From NCBI RefSeq assembly GCF_015207005.2, contig NZ_JADEXS020000001.1:2728001-2792000 (forward strand): DNA of 64,000 nt, read 5' to 3'. Positions 2,816 through 21,233 of this stretch are shown piece after piece. The notes under the pieces were generated by a model. It searched no databases. It was not told the origin of the DNA and saw only the letters and a list, made by a program, of their open reading frames with translations. Both the position numbers and the translations under genes were made by a program. The stretch is from Desmonostoc muscorum LEGE 12446 (GTDB lineage Bacteria > Cyanobacteriota > Cyanobacteriia > Cyanobacteriales > Nostocaceae). How positions within the stretch are numbered: the stretch's first letter is position 1; every line of letters starts with the position of its first letter.

Positions 2816-3307
2816 TCACTGCTGCTCCACTGTCAGAGTATAATCCCGCTTCATCCCAGGATTAAATGTGCCTACCCAAATCCGATAGGTGCCTTTTTTC
2901 CAGTTGCGATCGCTAACGCTAGCATCTTTAATTTTGCCAGTGTCATCGCCGCAGCGAATCGTCGTTTTATCTGGGCCTTGGATGAATAAAGTGGTATCGT
3001 TGTTATTGCTATCAACTTGTATTGTTAGCTGGGAAAAGTCATTTTCCAAAATCATCATGTGATCTGGATTGGGGTCGGCAAAACCAATACAAGCTTTTTG
3101 ATCGCGATCGCGGTTACTAATAGCAGACAAGGAGTAAGAACCACCTGTAAAGCCCTGCACTTTTCCTTGTGCTGGTTTAAAGTTGGATGAGAGATTCAAA
3201 GTACCAAAATTTGCTGTATCTGCGATCGCTGAGGTAGCTGTTAAGACGGTAAGTATGCCTAACAGCCAGCCGCCACAATACTGAAGTCGGGGGCGACAGT
3301 CTTTCAT
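2816..3307 (-). CDS. exported protein of unknown function
   Basis: A 163-residue protein with a clear Sec signal peptide (hydrophobic stretch about residues 13-26, probable cleavage after ATSAIA near residue 29). The mature part is a small beta-rich domain with two cysteines (CIGFADPNP and IRCGDD) and ends in TYRIWVGTFNPGMKRDYTLTVEQ, which resembles the C-terminal edge of pre-peptidase C-terminal (PPC)-like beta domains. It is probably periplasmic or outer-surface. The function is not recognised. It is a single gene between cysE and the DUF3352 gene, all on the minus strand. Confidence 0.7.
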   Translation of the reverse strand: MKDCRPRLQYCGGWLLGILTVLTATSAIADTANFGTLNLSSNFKPAQGKVQGFTGGSYSLSAISNRDRDQKACIGFADPNPDHMMILENDFSQLTIQVDSNNNDTTLFIQGPDKTTIRCGDDTGKIKDASVSDRNWKKGTYRIWVGTFNPGMKRDYTLTVEQQ

Positions 3308-3703: not shown

Positions 3704-5377
3704 TCAAGAATTATTGAGTTGGAAAAAGACGCCGCCTTTGAGTACTCCTGTGTTAGTTCCGTAACTACTGACTGTGAGCGATCGCAGGTTATTAAAAAAC
3801 GGTTTCCCTAAAACTTCCACTAACTTGAGAATTGGGATTTGACGCTCTAATAAATTCTGGCTCTTTGTCCAGTCAAGATAGATGTAGCCTTGGTTTGGTC
3901 GAGGAATCGCACCAATACTATCTTGGAACTGGGGATTATTAATTAAGGAATTGCCCTTAGTTGTGATGACTTGATCCATTGTTTCAAGATCGGAGGTGAA
4001 AATTTCGTAATTTCCTAAGGTTGTATGCGCCCCTCGCACTTTTGTCTCAATGGTGAATGATGCTCGCTCTTTGTCATTGGTTTTTTTACTAGCTGTGGTT
4101 AACTCTGTCCAAGCGGAAATTTTTTGGTTGTCTATGGACAGAGGACTGATGGTGAGTCCATTAGATGAAGCGATCGCATCTAAACGCGCTACACCTTGTT
4201 CTACATCCTGGGATTTTTCCGCGACAAAAATCCAATGGGGAGTTGTTTGTTCTTCAGGTAACAATGCTATGGCATATTCTCCCTGTACCCAACTGAAAAT
4301 ATCTTCTGGCAAATTTATCCCCCAGCGTTTTTGAGCATCGCCCAAGGGTTTTACAAATCGAGAAACCACATCTTCCTGGGAACCGTATATAGTTGCTGTT
4401 GTTTGTTTCCAGAGTTTGGCTACATCACTGTTACCCAAATTACTCAAATTTGAGCCGGAAATTGCCAAACTTGCTGATGCTGGCACATATTCCAATGCTC
4501 CTAGAGGTTTGGTTAGTGGTGAGGATGGAGAAACAATTTCTGATGAAGTCACAAAGGCGGTTTCTGCTAGCAATCCTTTGGGGTTCAACAACAGGGAAAT
4601 GATTTCACTGTTATATGTTTGTTCTGGTAGTTCTAATCCTTGCCATTTTGCCACGATGGGAAGATTCAAGAAAGCTACAGCTATACTACCTTTGGGCAGT
4701 TCTTTGGTAGCTTTTTGGTATTCGGGCGAGCTAGTCAAATTTAAATCGGGAGCTTGGACGTTATTGATAGCCTCTCGTAGTACTTTGGGATCATTAGCAA
4801 ACAACACAAAACCTTCGCCGACAACAGCACCAGCTAGATAATTTTGGATTTTATTTCCTGCGATCGCTTCCTGATTGTCATAAATCAGTTTTATGCCTTT
4901 GTATTCTTCAACATTTAAATTTGCCCCAGCTAACGCTCGTTTGGAAAATAATAACTCCACAAACTCGCGGCTTTTTTCCGGTTGCTTGGTTGCAAGTGCT
5001 AAAATATACCCTGTTTGTTGTCCATTTTCTGGATCGCGATCAATATCTAAGGTGGCGATCGCCAGTGTAATTTCGTTACCTAACCAGGGTTTAATATCTT
5101 GTTGGTAGTCTATGCCACTCTTACCCAAGAAACTAGTTTTGAGTTTAGATAGTTCTCCTTCACGCTCCAACGCCTGTAAGTTATCAGGATTTGTCAGTAA
5201 TGACACCATCACAGGGGCAAGTTTCGACACAAATATCGTTGCACCAGGTTGAGAGGTAGAAGCAGTGAGGTTAGCCGGACTTTTAGGAAAAAACCAGTAA
5301 AAGCCAGCGATCGCAATCACTAGCACTGCGATCGCACCAGCTACGATAAAACCGGTAAATGAGCGTTGTCTATTCAC
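3704..5377 (-). CDS. DUF3352 family membrane-anchored protein
   Basis: A 557-residue protein with one N-terminal membrane segment (about residues 9-29) and a long extracytoplasmic part. The opening of the mature region (SQPGATIFVSKLAPVMVSLL) and the pattern of beta strands with conserved GNE and LAVA-like stretches match the DUF3352 family, which is widespread in cyanobacteria and has no established function. There is no lipobox and no catalytic motif that I recognise. It is transcribed alone; the next gene upstream is divergent. Confidence 0.75.
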   Translation of the reverse strand: MNRQRSFTGFIVAGAIAVLVIAIAGFYWFFPKSPANLTASTSQPGATIFVSKLAPVMVSLLTNPDNLQALEREGELSKLKTSFLGKSGIDYQQDIKPWLGNEITLAIATLDIDRDPENGQQTGYILALATKQPEKSREFVELLFSKRALAGANLNVEEYKGIKLIYDNQEAIAGNKIQNYLAGAVVGEGFVLFANDPKVLREAINNVQAPDLNLTSSPEYQKATKELPKGSIAVAFLNLPIVAKWQGLELPEQTYNSEIISLLLNPKGLLAETAFVTSSEIVSPSSPLTKPLGALEYVPASASLAISGSNLSNLGNSDVAKLWKQTTATIYGSQEDVVSRFVKPLGDAQKRWGINLPEDIFSWVQGEYAIALLPEEQTTPHWIFVAEKSQDVEQGVARLDAIASSNGLTISPLSIDNQKISAWTELTTASKKTNDKERASFTIETKVRGAHTTLGNYEIFTSDLETMDQVITTKGNSLINNPQFQDSIGAIPRPNQGYIYLDWTKSQNLLERQIPILKLVEVLGKPFFNNLRSLTVSSYGTNTGVLKGGVFFQLNNS

Positions 5378-16717: not shown

Positions 16718-16847
16718 GTGGTGGATAGCTCAGTCGATAGAGCGCCTAAATATCCTTATTCACCCCTTGCCTGCAAAGGCCGACGAATTGAGGGTTATCG
16801 CCTGCCAAGCGGGAGGTCGCGGGTTCAAATCCCGCTCCACTACACCA
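16718..16847 (+). ncRNA. tRNA-like Y RNA, copy 1
   Basis: This 130-nt element has an eight-base-pair acceptor-like stem (GTGGTGGA 16718-16725 with TCCACTAC 16836-16843), a D arm (GCTC...GAGC, 16728-16743) and a perfect TpsiC arm (16819-16835), followed by an encoded ACCA. It has no anticodon arm. In that place is a hairpin with CTTGCC (16766-16771), loop TGCAAA and GGCCGACGAA (16778-16787), then AGGGTTATCG. The CUUG/GACGAA core resembles the Ro-binding helix of Y RNAs, and a Ro60-family gene lies just downstream. tRNA-like (YrlA-type) Y RNAs are known in other bacteria; this identification is by structure and context. Confidence 0.8.
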
Positions 16848-16920
16848 AATAATTTTAGATTTTAGATTTTAGATTTTGGATTGAATCTAAAATCCAAAAT
16901 CCAAAATCCAAAATTTTCAT
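16848..16920. repeat. inter-Y-RNA spacer repeat
   Basis: GATTTTA heptads followed by complementary TAAAATC-type heptads form a self-complementary spacer. A near-identical copy lies at 17048-17120, and half a copy precedes the first element at 16675-16717. Confidence 0.75.
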
Positions 16921-17047
16921 GTGGCGGGTAGCTCAGTGGTAGAGCGCTAAACATCCTTGTTCACCCCTTGCCTGCAAAGGCCGACGAATTAGGGTTATCG
17001 ATTAGGGTTCGAGAGGTCGCGGGTTCAAATCCCGCCCCGTTACACCA
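16921..17047 (+). ncRNA. tRNA-like Y RNA, copy 2
   Basis: A 127-nt element with the same plan as copy 1 and 203 bases downstream of it. The acceptor-like stem GTGGCGGG/CCCGTTAC (16921-16928, 17036-17043) keeps eight pairs through two compensating G.U pairs, which argues for selection on structure. The D arm (16931-16945) has the GG pair of a true D loop (AGTGGTA), the TpsiC arm is perfect (17019-17035), and ACCA is encoded at 17044-17047. The Y hairpin (16968-16990) is identical to that of copy 1. There is no anticodon stem. Confidence 0.8.
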
Positions 17048-17120
17048 AATAATTTTAGATTTTAGATTTTAGATTTTGGATTGAATCTAAAATCTAAAAT
17101 CCGAAATCCAAAATTTTCAT

Positions 17121-17246
17121 GTGGCAGGTAGCTCAGTGGTAGAGCGCCGAAAAACATCCTTGTTCACACCTTGCCTGAAAAGGCCGACGAATTAGGGTTA
17201 TCGCATTTTAAGCCGGATGTCGCAAGTTCAAATCCTGCCCTGCCAC
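17121..17246 (+). ncRNA. tRNA-like Y RNA, copy 3
   Basis: A 126-nt element. The acceptor-like stem GTGGCAGG/CCTGCCAC (17121-17128, 17239-17246) is a perfect eight pairs. The D arm lies at 17131-17145, and the T arm (17222-17238) has one A.C mismatch. The Y hairpin is TTGCCTGAAAAGGCCGACGAA, with one loop change from copies 1-2 (TGCAAA becomes TGAAAA). No CCA is encoded; CTTT follows. The rsr start codon lies 37 bases downstream. Confidence 0.78.
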
Positions 17247-17255
17247 CTTTCATTT

Positions 17256-17275
17256 TTGCCTGCAAAGGCCGGGAG
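17256..17275 (+). promoter_or_regulatory. Y-hairpin copy in the rsr leader, next to the ribosome site
   Basis: TTGCCTGCAAAGGCCG (17256-17271) is identical to the hairpin tip of Y-RNA copies 1 and 2. It runs directly into GGGAG (17271-17275), the ribosome-binding site of rsr, eight bases before the ATG. Binding of Ro protein to its own mRNA is conceivable but unproved. Confidence 0.5.
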
Positions 17276-17283
17276 ATGAAGCG

Positions 17284-18885
17284 ATGAATTACAATTTTTT
17301 CACTAAAAAGAAAACAACTACACCACAAAATCAGCCAATCCCTGGACGGGAAGCCGAGATGATTCAAGGACGTTCCGGCGGTTGGATGTTTGATGCTGGT
17401 ATTTGGAAAATGCTGCGTCGTTGTCTTTTGGTTGGCACGGCAAAAAGTACTTACTATGCCGGCAAACAAGAATTAACTGAGGATTTTGTGACAGTTGTCA
17501 AACAAGCCGTTGCTGAAAATCCCAGCCGTGTGGCGGAAGAAATTCTTTATGCTAGCGATGGACGCGCCATCAATAACAGTGCGCCTATTTTAGCTTTAGT
17601 TTTGCTGTCAATGGGTGAAGCACCAGAAGCAAAACAAGCATTTGGTGAAATTTTCCCCCAAGTTGTCCGTACTGGTAGCCACTTTTACGAATGGCTAAAC
17701 TACACCAAATCTCTGCGGGGATTTGGCAAAGTGGTGCGAGAAGCTGGTAAAACTTGGCTATCACGGGAAGATGTCAAAGGTTTAGCTTATCAACTGTTGA
17801 AATATCAACAGCGTCAAGGCTTTACCCACCGAGATGCATTGCGGTTGTTCCATGTCAAACCGCCTACAGAAAATCACCGTCAACTATTTGAGTGGGTAGT
17901 TAGAGGCTGGGAAGAATTGCCAGCAGATATTCCCTCAGAAGCGTTGGCGCAAATTTGGTGGTATGAGTGGCTCAAGCGGAATCCCAGCGAAACCCATGAA
18001 GCTATTTTGCAAGGACGCCTAACCCATGAAATGGCGGCACCCGTGGGCAAAATGGACAAAGCTGCTTGGCAGTTGCTATTTCAGGAAATGCCAATCGGTG
18101 CGATGCTGCGTAACCTGGGTTCTTTGACTGAACTGGGTGTGTTGCGAACTGACGAGGGCGCCAACTTGCTGCGAGTGGAAGCAGTTCTCAACAACAAAGA
18201 ACATCTGCGTAAAGGTCGCATTCATCCGATTGATGTTTTGAAAGCACTCAAAACATATAAATCTGGTGGTAAATTAGGACGCAGCCAAAAGACTTGGAAT
18301 CCGGTTTCTCGGATTGTGGACATTTTAGAAAAGGCGGTTGAACTGTCTTTTGATGTTGTGCAACCCACAGGTAAAGTGTTCATGCACGCTGTAGACGTTT
18401 CTGGTTCTATGGGTAGCTTGGTTGCAGATATGGGACTGAGTTGTTGTGAAATTGCCACCACAATGGCACTAGTAACAGCAAAAGCAGAGAAAAACTACAT
18501 GATTCGCGGGTTTGCTAAGGAATTCCGGGAATTGAATATTACAGCCAAAGATAGTTTTAGTTCTGCGGTTCGCAAAGCTAGCAACCAAAACTTCGGCGGA
18601 ACAGATGCCTCTGTGGCTTACGACTGGATGATTAAAAACAAGTTCAAGGCAGATGTTGTTTGCTTTTGGACTGACAGTGAGTCATGGGCTGGGTATAAAC
18701 ATCCAAGTCAAGCGCTGGCGCAGTACCGCAAAAAGGTAAATCCCAAGGTCAAGGCGGTGTATGTCACCCTGACACCTTACCAGATTACCTTGGTAGATCC
18801 TGAAGATTCGCTGTCTTGGGATTTGGCGGGATTCGATCCGGGTACACCTCGCATTATCCAAATGCTGGCTACGGGTGAGTTGTAG
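17284..18885 (+). CDS. rsr: Ro60-family TROVE domain protein (Rsr)
   Basis: A 533-residue orthologue of the Ro autoantigen, a ring-shaped RNA-binding protein that holds Y RNAs on its outer surface and passes structured RNA ends through its hole. In bacteria it works with exoribonucleases such as PNPase in RNA decay and stress survival. Residues about 25-330 form the TROVE HEAT-repeat ring (SRVAEEILYASDGRAINNSA; GFTHRDALRLFHVKP). Residues 365-533 form a von Willebrand A-like domain with an intact MIDAS: DVSGS at 371-375, a threonine in GGTDAS and an aspartate in WTDSES. Y-like RNA genes flank it on both sides, which supports function. Confidence 0.95.
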   Translation: MNYNFFTKKKTTTPQNQPIPGREAEMIQGRSGGWMFDAGIWKMLRRCLLVGTAKSTYYAGKQELTEDFVTVVKQAVAENPSRVAEEILYASDGRAINNSAPILALVLLSMGEAPEAKQAFGEIFPQVVRTGSHFYEWLNYTKSLRGFGKVVREAGKTWLSREDVKGLAYQLLKYQQRQGFTHRDALRLFHVKPPTENHRQLFEWVVRGWEELPADIPSEALAQIWWYEWLKRNPSETHEAILQGRLTHEMAAPVGKMDKAAWQLLFQEMPIGAMLRNLGSLTELGVLRTDEGANLLRVEAVLNNKEHLRKGRIHPIDVLKALKTYKSGGKLGRSQKTWNPVSRIVDILEKAVELSFDVVQPTGKVFMHAVDVSGSMGSLVADMGLSCCEIATTMALVTAKAEKNYMIRGFAKEFRELNITAKDSFSSAVRKASNQNFGGTDASVAYDWMIKNKFKADVVCFWTDSESWAGYKHPSQALAQYRKKVNPKVKAVYVTLTPYQITLVDPEDSLSWDLAGFDPGTPRIIQMLATGEL

Positions 18886-18893
18886 AGATTCGT

Positions 18894-18920
18894 GGAGGAT
18901 AAAGTTTTCTTTTATCCTCC
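18894..18920 (+). terminator. hairpin after rsr
   Basis: GGAGGATAAA (18894-18903) pairs perfectly with TTTATCCTCC (18911-18920), eight bases after the rsr stop. There is no long T-run after it, so it may be a processing or stability hairpin rather than a terminator. It separates rsr from the fourth Y RNA by only nine bases. Confidence 0.5.
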
Positions 18921-18929
18921 TTACTTCAT

Positions 18930-19042
18930 GGCGGGTTACCCTTGTTCACAACTTGCCCTTTGGGGACGAAGAATTTAGGGTTATCGGTTACGTCTCCACC
19001 ATTGTGGGGATAGCGGGTTCAATTCCCGCACCCGCCTTTTTT
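18930..19042 (+). ncRNA. divergent tRNA-like Y RNA, copy 4, with built-in terminator
   Basis: Lies 45 bases after rsr. A perfect seven-pair acceptor-like stem (GGCGGGT 18930-18936 with ACCCGCC 19030-19036) is followed directly by a T-run (19037-19042), so it also acts as an intrinsic terminator. A perfect TpsiC arm (19013-19029) and a hairpin CTCCAC/GTGGGG before it are present. There is no D arm. The Y core is kept: TTGTTCACAACTTGCCC, then GGGGACGAAG, then AGGGTTATCGG. GACGAAG matches the conserved strand of bacterial Y RNAs better than the first three copies do. Confidence 0.75.
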
Positions 19043-19185: not shown

Positions 19186-21147
19186 TTAAGTCAAAAATAT
19201 TGCCACGAATCTAGTATAATATTTTTCATTTATTCTTAGACTATGAATTGCTTGTTTTACTTCCTCAATTTTTTGCTCAAATGACAGGTTAGGAAATATT
19301 TGTACTACTTTTTCCAAGTTTAGTTTGATTTCATCAAAAATTTCTTTACTTTGGTTATTTTTTGTAATTTGATGTAAAAATGTTCCCGTAAAATCCTGAG
19401 ATTCAGCTAAATATCGAAGTAAACTAATCATTAGTTTATCCTCTTTAACTCTCGTCGCTATCAGCAAAGCTGTTTGAAAAAAACATTGGCTTACTTTCAA
19501 ACTTCTCTGGTAATACTCAAATTCCTTGGTACTTGCTATAAAATTTCCTTCACTTTCATCAATTATTCCTAATACTTGTATATTTAATGCAAACTTATAA
19601 ATTACTAAACCTAAATTGGAATAATAATCAACATATTCAAAAACCATATTTTCGATAGCTTTAAAGAAAGGATTATCTAATACCTTTGGTTCTTGCCTTA
19701 ATTCTTCAAAACAACCTACTCCATAAAATTCCATCACATGGTAAACAACTTCTAAGGCAATAGTTTCCTGTTTACTCAGGTTTTGTTTTACGGCTGTTTC
19801 TGCATTCTCTATATTTAAATAGATTTGTTCTTGAGTATTATTAACTTCCGTAAAAGCAATTTTTGGTATAATTGTTTGGCAGTTATTAGATATTAATGTA
19901 GATAAAAATATTCCGGCTTCAGCATGAGATTTTTTCCAATCATCTGTTAATTTAAGTCTTTCTATCGCTTCTTGGCGGATAACTTCATGTGAATAGTATC
20001 CTTCACTGCTAAACTTCACTAAAGCTCTGTTTTTTAAATCCCTGATAAATCGGCGTTTATCCCGCTCATTTTGCTCATCCCAAAGTAAGCAAAAAATTCC
20101 TTCTTCAGATATAAGAGAAATATATTGATAACGGTAACACCCTAATCGACATAAAAGTTTATAGGCTTGGGCATTATCTCGTTTAATTTTATCAAACTGA
20201 CGTTTAACAAGGTTTTCTAATTTTGCATTTAATAACAAATCGTTCTTGTATTTCTGCCAATATGCACTTAAATTCCCTTTAAATTCGACATCTTTAATAT
20301 CAGCACACATAAGAGACATAGCCTCGGCATTTCCACCATACGCTTGGTTAATCTCACTAATAGCATCTATGTCTATATTGATATTATGAATTTTAAAAAA
20401 ATCTTTCCATGCATCTACTTTCAAACCTTCCAAGTGATAAAATTTAATATCCTCTGATTTTAATCTATCATCATACAGCGGCTCACGGCTTGTAATAAGT
20501 GTAATTGATTTTACACTACTATCGGCTAGAGCTTTTAATATTTCTACATAGTCGCTTTGATGTGGTTCTATGAATTCGCCACTTATAAGATATGATTCTA
20601 AGTTATTAATTAAAAAGCCGATTTTTTGAGTCTGAAGCTCACTTTTCAGTTGCTCCAGCATCTTTGGGAACTTTAGTTCGAGTATTTTTAAACCTCGACG
20701 CTCAAACCATTTTTTAGCTAACTTAGTTTTGCCTACACCACCCTCTGCCTGGATTAAGATAACTTTTGCCCCTTCGTTAACTAGTTTATCAAGGTCTGCG
20801 ATCGCTTCCTCACGCCCCAGAAAATCAGGATTTTCAGATATCGTTTTATGTTCACTGAAATTTTCTTTTTGTGGTAACTCTGAAGTATTTTGATTTAATA
20901 ACTCAGGTTTATACTTAGCAAATAGAGCGATTAATTCTGGAAGCTTTGAGCGGCGTTCGTCTGGAAATTCATTATTTAAACCAAATAACTTACAAATTTT
21001 CTCACGATGTTTTCTGACAGTTGATTTCTGAATGTGCAAAAAGTTGGCGATCGCTTCATCTTTTTCGTTAGCCAGTAGTTTCAGCAGCACCTCTCGCCGC
21101 CTTTCAGTTAAGCGATTAAATATTGCATTGAAATGTTGTTGATTCAT
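19186..21147 (-). CDS. STAND/NB-ARC-type regulator with N-terminal HTH
   Basis: I start at the ATG at 21147 (653 residues), because an HTH domain of LuxR/sigma-70 type begins just there (LTERRREVLLKLLANEKDEAIANFLHIQ, then STVRKHREKICKLFG, about residues 11-55). A P-loop NTPase follows: Walker A EGGVGKTKLAKKW, a hydrophobic Walker B strand IGFLINNLES, and ITSREP as the sensor (R) motif of NB-ARC proteins. The C-terminal 300 residues are helical and TPR-like. This architecture suits a signal-activated, oligomerising regulator. The upstream region shared with the next gene holds a palindrome. The low GC content compared with neighbours suggests an accessory gene. Confidence 0.75.
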   Translation of the reverse strand: MNQQHFNAIFNRLTERRREVLLKLLANEKDEAIANFLHIQKSTVRKHREKICKLFGLNNEFPDERRSKLPELIALFAKYKPELLNQNTSELPQKENFSEHKTISENPDFLGREEAIADLDKLVNEGAKVILIQAEGGVGKTKLAKKWFERRGLKILELKFPKMLEQLKSELQTQKIGFLINNLESYLISGEFIEPHQSDYVEILKALADSSVKSITLITSREPLYDDRLKSEDIKFYHLEGLKVDAWKDFFKIHNINIDIDAISEINQAYGGNAEAMSLMCADIKDVEFKGNLSAYWQKYKNDLLLNAKLENLVKRQFDKIKRDNAQAYKLLCRLGCYRYQYISLISEEGIFCLLWDEQNERDKRRFIRDLKNRALVKFSSEGYYSHEVIRQEAIERLKLTDDWKKSHAEAGIFLSTLISNNCQTIIPKIAFTEVNNTQEQIYLNIENAETAVKQNLSKQETIALEVVYHVMEFYGVGCFEELRQEPKVLDNPFFKAIENMVFEYVDYYSNLGLVIYKFALNIQVLGIIDESEGNFIASTKEFEYYQRSLKVSQCFFQTALLIATRVKEDKLMISLLRYLAESQDFTGTFLHQITKNNQSKEIFDEIKLNLEKVVQIFPNLSFEQKIEEVKQAIHSLRINEKYYTRFVAIFLT

Positions 21148-21170
21148 AAGTATTAACGCATCACAACCAC

Positions 21171-21233
21171 AGTACACATCTGTGTACTCTATGTAGTCAC
21201 AAAGACTCACAGCATGTGTATTACTTGTGTACT
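21171..21233. promoter_or_regulatory. palindrome between divergent genes (candidate operator)
   Basis: AGTACACA (21171-21178) and TGTGTACT (21181-21188) form an eight-base inverted repeat with a two-base centre. A third half-site TTGTGTACT lies at 21225-21233. It sits 23 bases upstream of the regulator gene's start and about 90 bases upstream of the nuclease-like gene. Confidence 0.5.

Follow-up and report, generated by a model that had tools for sequence, protein, structure and literature searches.

What are the tRNA-like elements that surround the rsr gene of the cyanobacterium Desmonostoc muscorum LEGE 12446? The locus lies in a stretch of 64,000 nucleotides (NCBI RefSeq assembly GCF_015207005.2, contig NZ_JADEXS020000001.1, positions 2,728,001 to 2,792,000 of the forward strand), hereafter the window, with position 1 as its first letter. 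Three tandem elements (E1 to E3) precede rsr, which encodes the Ro60-like protein Rsr, and a fourth (E4) follows it, all on the rsr strand (Table 1). A reading made from the letters alone (the sequence-only reading) had proposed that these are Y RNAs of the YrlA type. We found the four elements, the intervening rsr and the stems quoted in that reading all in place. The explanation that we favor, and consider quite probable, is that they are four Rsr-associated Y RNAs in which a Ro60-binding arm replaces the anticodon arm of an unpermuted tRNA body, with this body acting as a tether.

Architecture of the elements

The protein encoded between E3 and E4 matches the Pfam families vWA_Ro60 (4.2e-38) and TROVE (7e-18). 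Its residues 13-532 match PDB entry 2nvo_A, a solved structure named 'Ro sixty-related protein, RSR' (E = 1.1e-72), which we take to be the Deinococcus protein.

Each of the three upstream elements consists, in this order, of an 8-bp acceptor, TA, a D arm, a short linker, the Ro arm, a short variable stretch, a T arm, and the second acceptor strand. The 8-bp acceptor helices form within each copy, namely, GTGGTGGA/TCCACTAC in E1 (16718-16725/16836-16843), GTGGCGGG/CCCGTTAC in E2, and GTGGCAGG/CCTGCCAC in E3, and the third acceptor pair is G:U in both E1 and E2. These two elements encode ACCA at their ends (16844-16847 and 17044-17047, respectively), and E3 has no encoded CCA, its acceptor being followed by CTTT. 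E4 has a 7-bp acceptor (GGCGGGT/ACCCGCC), a Ro arm, and a variable-arm-like additional hairpin that precedes the T arm, and a T run after the element extends to 19042; it lacks a D arm, so that the D arm is present in three elements, as had been noted before. Except for this missing arm, acceptor, D and T arms stand in tRNA order and make up a tRNA-like module with the same stems as in YrlA. Single-sequence folding gave a cloverleaf with a Ro arm for E1, E2, and E4, and the acceptor, D stem, and Ro arm for E3.

No anticodon arm was found. Its place is taken, as the sequence-only reading had described, by a conserved CTTGCC..GACGAA hairpin (approximately 16752-16795 in E1). The motif CTTGCC..GACGAA..AGGGTTATCG occurs four times in the 9.6-Mb genome, each time at the rsr locus, and the reversed pattern does not occur. 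In this arm, the apical stem (UUGCC..GGC or GGA) is followed by a single unpaired base and CGA; the outer helix consists of AUCCU/AGGGU with GUUC/GAAU. The bacterial consensus for the Ro site is GNCGAA/CNUUG. The helix with one bulged base and CGA/UUG strands that marks Y RNAs is seen here in both the alignment counts and the RNAalifold prediction. In vertebrates, a passage in PMC4726728 describes the Ro60 site as a helix with a single bulged cytidine.

Could the elements be intron-containing tRNA genes that give rise to decoding tRNAs, a possibility that the sequence-only reading had itself raised as an objection? Their tRNA bodies do have the normal order and some copies have CCA ends, but no anticodon stem-loop would remain after splicing, as the arm is flanked only by a two-pair residual stem (in alignment A1, see below). 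The inserted arm is moreover the conserved part, and ARAGORN called no tRNA, either in the window or among 23 relatives. We see a very slight chance for this alternative. With the Rfam tRNA model (RF00005), E2 alone passed the cut-off in the window (43.2 bits), and 22 passes were obtained over the 18 loci searched.

Table 1. Positions of the elements and associated features at the rsr locus (window coordinates).
Feature	Coordinates	Strand	Evidence
Element 1 (E1), putative tRNA-form Y RNA	16718..16847	+	R1 136.2 bits, fold, sequence
Element 2 (E2), putative tRNA-form Y RNA	16921..17047	+	R1 129.9 bits, Rfam tRNA 43.2 bits, fold
Element 3 (E3), putative rsr-proximal tRNA-form Y RNA	17121..17246	+	R1 131.7 bits; cloverleaf partly recovered by fold
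rsr leader hairpin UUUCAUUUUUGCCU-GCAA-AGGC-CG-GGAGAUGAAG	17248..17280	+	Leader pattern, fold, pair counts
rsr, Ro60-like protein (Rsr), 533 amino acids	17284..18885	+	Pfam and PDB matches
Element 4 (E4), downstream	18930..19036	+	R1 53.1 bits (poor 5' alignment), fold z -3.46, downstream element in 44/80 loci

Covariation and selection on structure

Alignment A1 contains 35 elements, namely, the three upstream elements of the window and 32 others, selected to be diverse, from 25 members of a set of 80 named cyanobacterial rsr loci (the 80 best among 169); E1 and E3 entered it two bases and one base short, respectively, and the consensus structure was written from one row. E1 to E3 are among the 35 training rows of our covariance model, R1, and E4 is outside this set. 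In A1, 95.8% of 1079 cells are paired and 21 of 31 pairs change on both sides, counts that are inflated by relatedness among the aligned elements. The covariation score is 0.461, compared with 0.210 (standard deviation 0.010) for shuffled alignments and 0.087-0.134 for slid controls. All eight acceptor pairs change on both sides, with 99.6% of cells paired; pairing is less perfect in the outer Ro helix (94.0%) and in the two-pair residual anticodon stem (91.2%). Unaided, RNAalifold predicted the acceptor, D, apical Ro, and T helices, with UUG paired with CGA around an unpaired base.

These patterns indicate that selection acts on the structure of the elements. The sequence-only reading had argued the same from compensating stem changes between copies and had named covariation in relatives as a test; this covariation is present. 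The repetitive, AT-rich spacers might suggest decayed tRNA-derived repeats, an idea already contradicted by such strong compensatory change, as well as by the confinement of the motif to the rsr locus in this genome, the co-occurrence with Rsr, and the conservation at 78 of 80 loci. We give it next to no credence.

Linkage to rsr across cyanobacteria

The elements are encoded beside rsr, as Y RNAs are expected to be. At E ≤ 1e-8, R1 matches are present at 78 of the 80 named loci (L064 and L089 have none), and all 216 of these matches lie on the rsr strand; the 25 loci that supplied model rows are among the loci counted. A script that combined a motif anchor with the arms (score ≥43) found at least one element at 79 loci, an upstream element at 77 (one to five copies, same strand), and an element after rsr at 44; the 3+1 pattern of the window recurs in 18. 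Four copies, which had been regarded as an unusually large set, are usual, since at least four are present at 29 of these loci.

R1 was also run, with stricter filters, on 386 genomes from the phylum. Every one of them has a match at E ≤ 0.001, because ordinary tRNAs match too, with up to 59.6 bits. Above 60 bits, a line chosen after the scores had been seen and near those of tRNAs, matches are found in 33 genomes, all of which are among the 39 that have vWA_Ro60 above its cut-off. A match of at least 74 bits is present in 32 of the 33, and the remaining one (G097, 64.7 bits) was inspected by eye. In Picosynechococcus PCC 7002, rsr is on plasmid pAQ7 and has three R1 matches upstream (95.5, 58.6, and 42.0 bits), located at approximately 163019-163425 of NC_010474.1 on the minus strand. 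Together with the covariation and the Ro60-site signature (a bulged base before CGA, opposite UUG), this co-occurrence supports the proposal that the elements are putative tRNA-mimicking Y RNAs of Rsr.

The six Rsr genomes with no match above 60 bits are G075, G094, G176, G072, and G086 (sequence inspected) and G404 (not inspected). A YrlA match adjoins rsr in G086 (47.6 bits, below cut-off), rsr adjoins tRNA genes in G176 and G072, G176 also has long weak R1 matches (23.3 and 20.5 bits) immediately upstream of rsr, and no candidate element was seen at the rsr locus of G075. In G094, RF01656, a nematode small-RNA family with a cut-off of 38 bits, has two matches upstream of rsr (37.4 and 31.3 bits). 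The two below-cut-off RF01656 matches of locus L155 (6531-6596 and 6671-6736, minus strand) are upstream of an rsr without R1 elements. As nematode stem-bulge RNAs are relatives of Y RNAs according to a passage in PMC4726728, such matches may be Y RNAs without a tRNA body.

The circular permutant of YrlA

YrlA (RF02553; Salmonella structure 6CU1) shares with the elements a Ro-binding stem, D arm, T arm, and acceptor-like stem, as well as the place next to rsr. The arrangement differs. The ends of the YrlA RNA pair as the Ro stem, a loop closes the acceptor, and the T arm precedes the D arm in the Rfam model, whereas the elements have tRNA order, an open acceptor, and a Ro arm that is a closed hairpin. 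One passage describes 6CU1 as circularly permuted relative to tRNAs (PMC11472068), and another describes the large stem of YrlA as its paired 5' and 3' ends (PMC8394870). Neither by sequence nor by predicted fold did we find the YrlA topology in the elements. Judged on these two grounds, they are the unpermuted counterpart of YrlA, that is, the other circular permutant, often with an encoded CCA, and the assignment to the YrlA type is to be corrected in this sense.

A covariance-model search with a YrlA or Y-RNA model had been proposed as a check: RF02553 did not reach its cut-off of 69 in the window, at the 18 loci, or in any of the 386 genomes (0/386). Weaker RF02553 matches (E ≤ 0.001) are present in 54 of the 386, and below-cut-off matches also in 6 of 14 control genomes. 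In a relaxed search of the window, the only matches ran across neighboring copies, joining the T half of E2, an 81-nt insert, and the D half of E3 (31.0 bits), and likewise across E1 and E2 (25.4 bits).

These matches, which contain long inserts, raise the possibility that the mature RNAs are ordinary YrlA molecules assembled across neighbors, each from the T-arm half of one copy, the spacer, and the D-arm half of its neighbor, so that the RNA would begin and end in the Ro stem. Even so, both scores are far below the cut-off. Among 90 distinct neighbor pairs, all seven core acceptor pairs are complete in 171 of 180 own stems but in only 33 of 90 pairings in YrlA order, a contrast that is somewhat inflated and partly circular because the own 5' strand was chosen by pairing. 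The RNAalifold prediction is the freer evidence for an unpermuted fold. The spacer between acceptor ends varies from 7 to 300 nt (median 62 nt), 9 of 77 loci have a single upstream element, E4 stands alone, and CCA follows the acceptor in 72 of 118 upstream copies at the 80 loci that are not proximal to rsr. We regard assembly across copies as highly improbable.

The two forms were also mapped on a tree of 52 Rsr proteins, with 30 rows labeled as tRNA form and 13 as YrlA form; nine rows are unlabeled or have both forms. The YrlA labels are below-cut-off matches, and 12 of the 13 labeled loci were inspected (L197 was not); L191 also has a long R1 match, and L154 is a fragment on a very long branch. 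The labels require 8 changes, 2 of them forced by starred branches, compared with 11.5 on average when shuffled. The tree lends weak support to switching between the tRNA form and the YrlA form.

Encoded CCA ends and alanine-like features

Among the 72 non-proximal upstream elements with CCA at the right place, 65 have ACCA. For comparison, 11 of 54 distinct host tRNA genes encode CCA by eye; the count of 17 given by a script includes 7 false cases in which the acceptor and discriminator read CCA. Nine of the 11 lie in a tRNA array (G000:C1:2967688-2970999) approximately 175 kb past the end of the window. Since an encoded CCA is unusual for single tRNA genes of this host, its presence is an argument for use of the tRNA 3' end by the upstream elements.

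Both tRNA-Ala and tmRNA owe their alanine identity to G3:U70 together with A73. Among the non-proximal elements, a G:U third acceptor pair is present in 42 of the 72 with CCA and in 5 of the 46 without it. Fisher's test gives p = 3.5e-5 for 92 deduplicated upstream elements and 0.018 for 61 non-proximal ones, values that ignore shared ancestry; because of this, and because G:U is about as frequent at acceptor pair 8, the association is only a lead. Scoring of 19 elements against the nearest host tRNA was clear only for the E1 body (Ala) and the L095 D arm (Leu), and other body types are descriptions by eye.

A conserved hairpin in the rsr leader

The pattern TTGYCY-N(3-5)-RGR-H-YG is present in all 70 distinct leaders of the 80 loci and ends 8-19 bases before the start codon (12 bases in 55 of 70). 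The pattern was written after the leaders had been inspected; among 16000 random 50-nt windows drawn from these loci, elements included, 356 contain it, as do 0.04% of shuffled leaders. In the D. muscorum window, the pattern is part of a longer hairpin in which the Shine-Dalgarno sequence is paired (-12.4 kcal/mol, with a z-score of only -1.45). Across 35 leaders (34 cyanobacterial loci including that of the window, and pAQ7), a six-pair core is 97.1% paired with one two-sided pair, and a 14-pair form is 78.6% paired with nine. As the hairpin resembles the tip of the Ro arm, autoregulation by free Rsr would be a natural inference.

With this hairpin and the one to five same-strand copies upstream of rsr at 77 of 80 loci, it could be asked whether the elements act in cis within the rsr mRNA leader and are not RNAs in their own right. 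Against this stand the copies after rsr at 44 of 80 loci, the often encoded CCA ends, and L153, where a tRNA array downstream of rsr contains two copies. We hold a role confined to the leader to be improbable, and return to separate Y RNAs below.

Viral contigs and distant relatives

Among 75 viral contigs with Rsr, 18 hold an R1 match of at least 115 nt (E ≤ 1e-4); these include three loci with the same score and place (L167, L168, and L211), two that are near-identical (L231 and L233), and one whose match overlaps a YrlA match (L191). Viral matches outside the model rows score 93.9, 86.3, 81 bits, and lower. In most of 27 viral or similar stretches inspected, an arm like UUG..GG-N-CGR is recognizable; L228 2673-2810 and L208 3762-3920 are ambiguous, and the stretches of approximately 100 nt in L165 and L169 resemble ordinary long-armed tRNAs. 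The latter (2690-2788 and 3092-3191, respectively) lie near rsr and resemble tRNA genes, each with a long variable arm and what looks like a CTA anticodon. In 50 of these viral records, RF02553 gave no match above cut-off and weaker ones in 18, several of which adjoin rsr and have a closed acceptor.

L153, from a genome of the same phylum outside the class of D. muscorum, has both permutants within one 10-kb stretch. Downstream of its rsr lies a YrlA-form RNA (38.4 bits, below cut-off) whose ends pair as the Ro stem, followed by the tRNA array with two tRNA-form elements (R1 64.7 and 44.7 bits). The element at 4128-4256 (minus strand) also matches the selenocysteine tRNA family, with 35.1 bits against a cut-off of 47. 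In distant relatives (L153, L157, and L158), rsr adjoins tRNA genes or arrays, and one of these contigs looks phage-like.

An Rsr match is also present in 348 phage and 62 plasmid records, two of each being inspected. A Rhizobium plasmid with an Rsr match had no R1 match, and two phages had weak ones (35.8 and 29.9 bits) beside below-cut-off YrlA matches. A passage in PMC12282133 suggests abundant Y RNAs adjoining an Rsr-like gene in CKA15, a relative of Listeria phage P100. In P100, gp165, taken as the counterpart of that gene by size and place, proved in Pfam to be DUF2828/DUF7788, and in the 10.4 kb searched the R1 matches were to ordinary tRNAs, apart from a single short, weak one; P100 therefore gives no expression evidence. 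The region upstream of gp165 (L271 33200-33440) holds a short repeat in three similar copies (around ACAGCAATTACTA and variants of it), which may be the abundant RNAs described in CKA15.

Other features of the window

The spacers at 16848-16920 and 17048-17120 between the tandem elements are near-identical and form AT-rich hairpins; microRNA-family matches in the window were dismissed as chance matches to AT-rich spacers. At 19186-21210 (minus strand), a 674-amino-acid protein has a LuxR-type (GerE) HTH match and, by eye, an apparent ATPase domain.

Proposed mechanism and relation to known RNAs

Several results weigh against our favored explanation. Besides the circularity of the own-versus-neighbor contrast, the R1 matches to ordinary tRNAs in all 386 genomes, the late choice of the 60-bit line, and the six Rsr genomes without a match above it, the T arm of E3 has T-stem mismatches and was not recovered by folding. 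The predicted stability of E2 and E3 is unremarkable (folding-energy z-scores of -0.76 and -1.07, with -2.64 for E1 and -3.46 for E4), and the outer Ro helix and the residual anticodon stem are absent from the RNAalifold prediction for A1. CCA is scarce in rsr-proximal elements (6 of 77) and downstream ones (1 of 45). The promoter scan was at chance level, as was the terminator scan.

Structure, permutation, rsr linkage, and conservation are shown by computation. In the proposed mechanism, the four elements and rsr would be transcribed together in the rsr direction, and the tRNA-processing enzymes RNase P and RNase Z would release the elements at their acceptor stems; as the transcript would also carry rsr, the supply of Y RNA would be tied to that of Rsr. 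Rsr would then bind the closed Ro arm, and the tRNA body with its free 3' end may tether Rsr to a tRNA-recognizing partner or nuclease. The analogy is with Deinococcus, where, according to passages in PMC4726728 and PMC8058203, a Y RNA tethers Rsr to PNPase.

A broader reading, which we consider unlikely to hold as a whole, joins these observations. The Ro60-binding arm would be a portable cassette able to take the place of the anticodon arm in different tRNAs, and the resulting RNAs would retain working tRNA ends. A subset with G3:U70, A73, and encoded CCA, such as E1 and E2, would be alanylated by AlaRS, which would need no anticodon, giving an aminoacylated Y RNA. Relocation of the RNA ends to the Ro arm would have turned such tandem tRNA-form genes into YrlA, and the rsr mRNA would be repressed by free Rsr through the decoy Ro-arm hairpin over the Shine-Dalgarno sequence.

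In metazoan and Deinococcus Y RNAs, the stem is made by the RNA ends, and these RNAs are not known to be built on a tRNA body. What they share with the elements is the Ro site (described in PMC4726728), a helix that bears the CGA/UUG signature and one bulged base. From tRNAs, whose acceptor, D, variable, and T parts they share in normal order, the elements differ by a Ro arm of approximately 45 nt and no anticodon arm. With tmRNA they share a tRNA-like acceptor and T arm without an anticodon, and some carry G3:U70, A73, and CCA, as tmRNA does; unlike tmRNA, they have no visible messenger part or tag, and the Rfam tmRNA model gives 21.9 bits against a cut-off of 47. A tRNA-like bacterial Y RNA is a known kind, and the unpermuted, multi-copy form on varied tRNA bodies would be new. 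The literature searched contained no description of unpermuted or cyanobacterial Y RNAs; Chen 2014, which reportedly found Y RNAs close to Ro60 in more than 250 bacteria and phages, may include such loci.

For annotation, the elements are overlooked by ARAGORN, and Rfam either misses them or labels them tRNA. For the family, an open-ended, plain tRNA body serving as a Y RNA module would be the counterpart of YrlA, and the tandem tRNA-form copies together with one locus holding both permutants make the origin of tRNA mimicry by Y RNAs testable. The open form predicts that these Y RNAs would be processed by RNase P and at their CCA ends, and organisms in which this could be tested include Picosynechococcus PCC 7002, with its plasmid pAQ7, and Nostoc.

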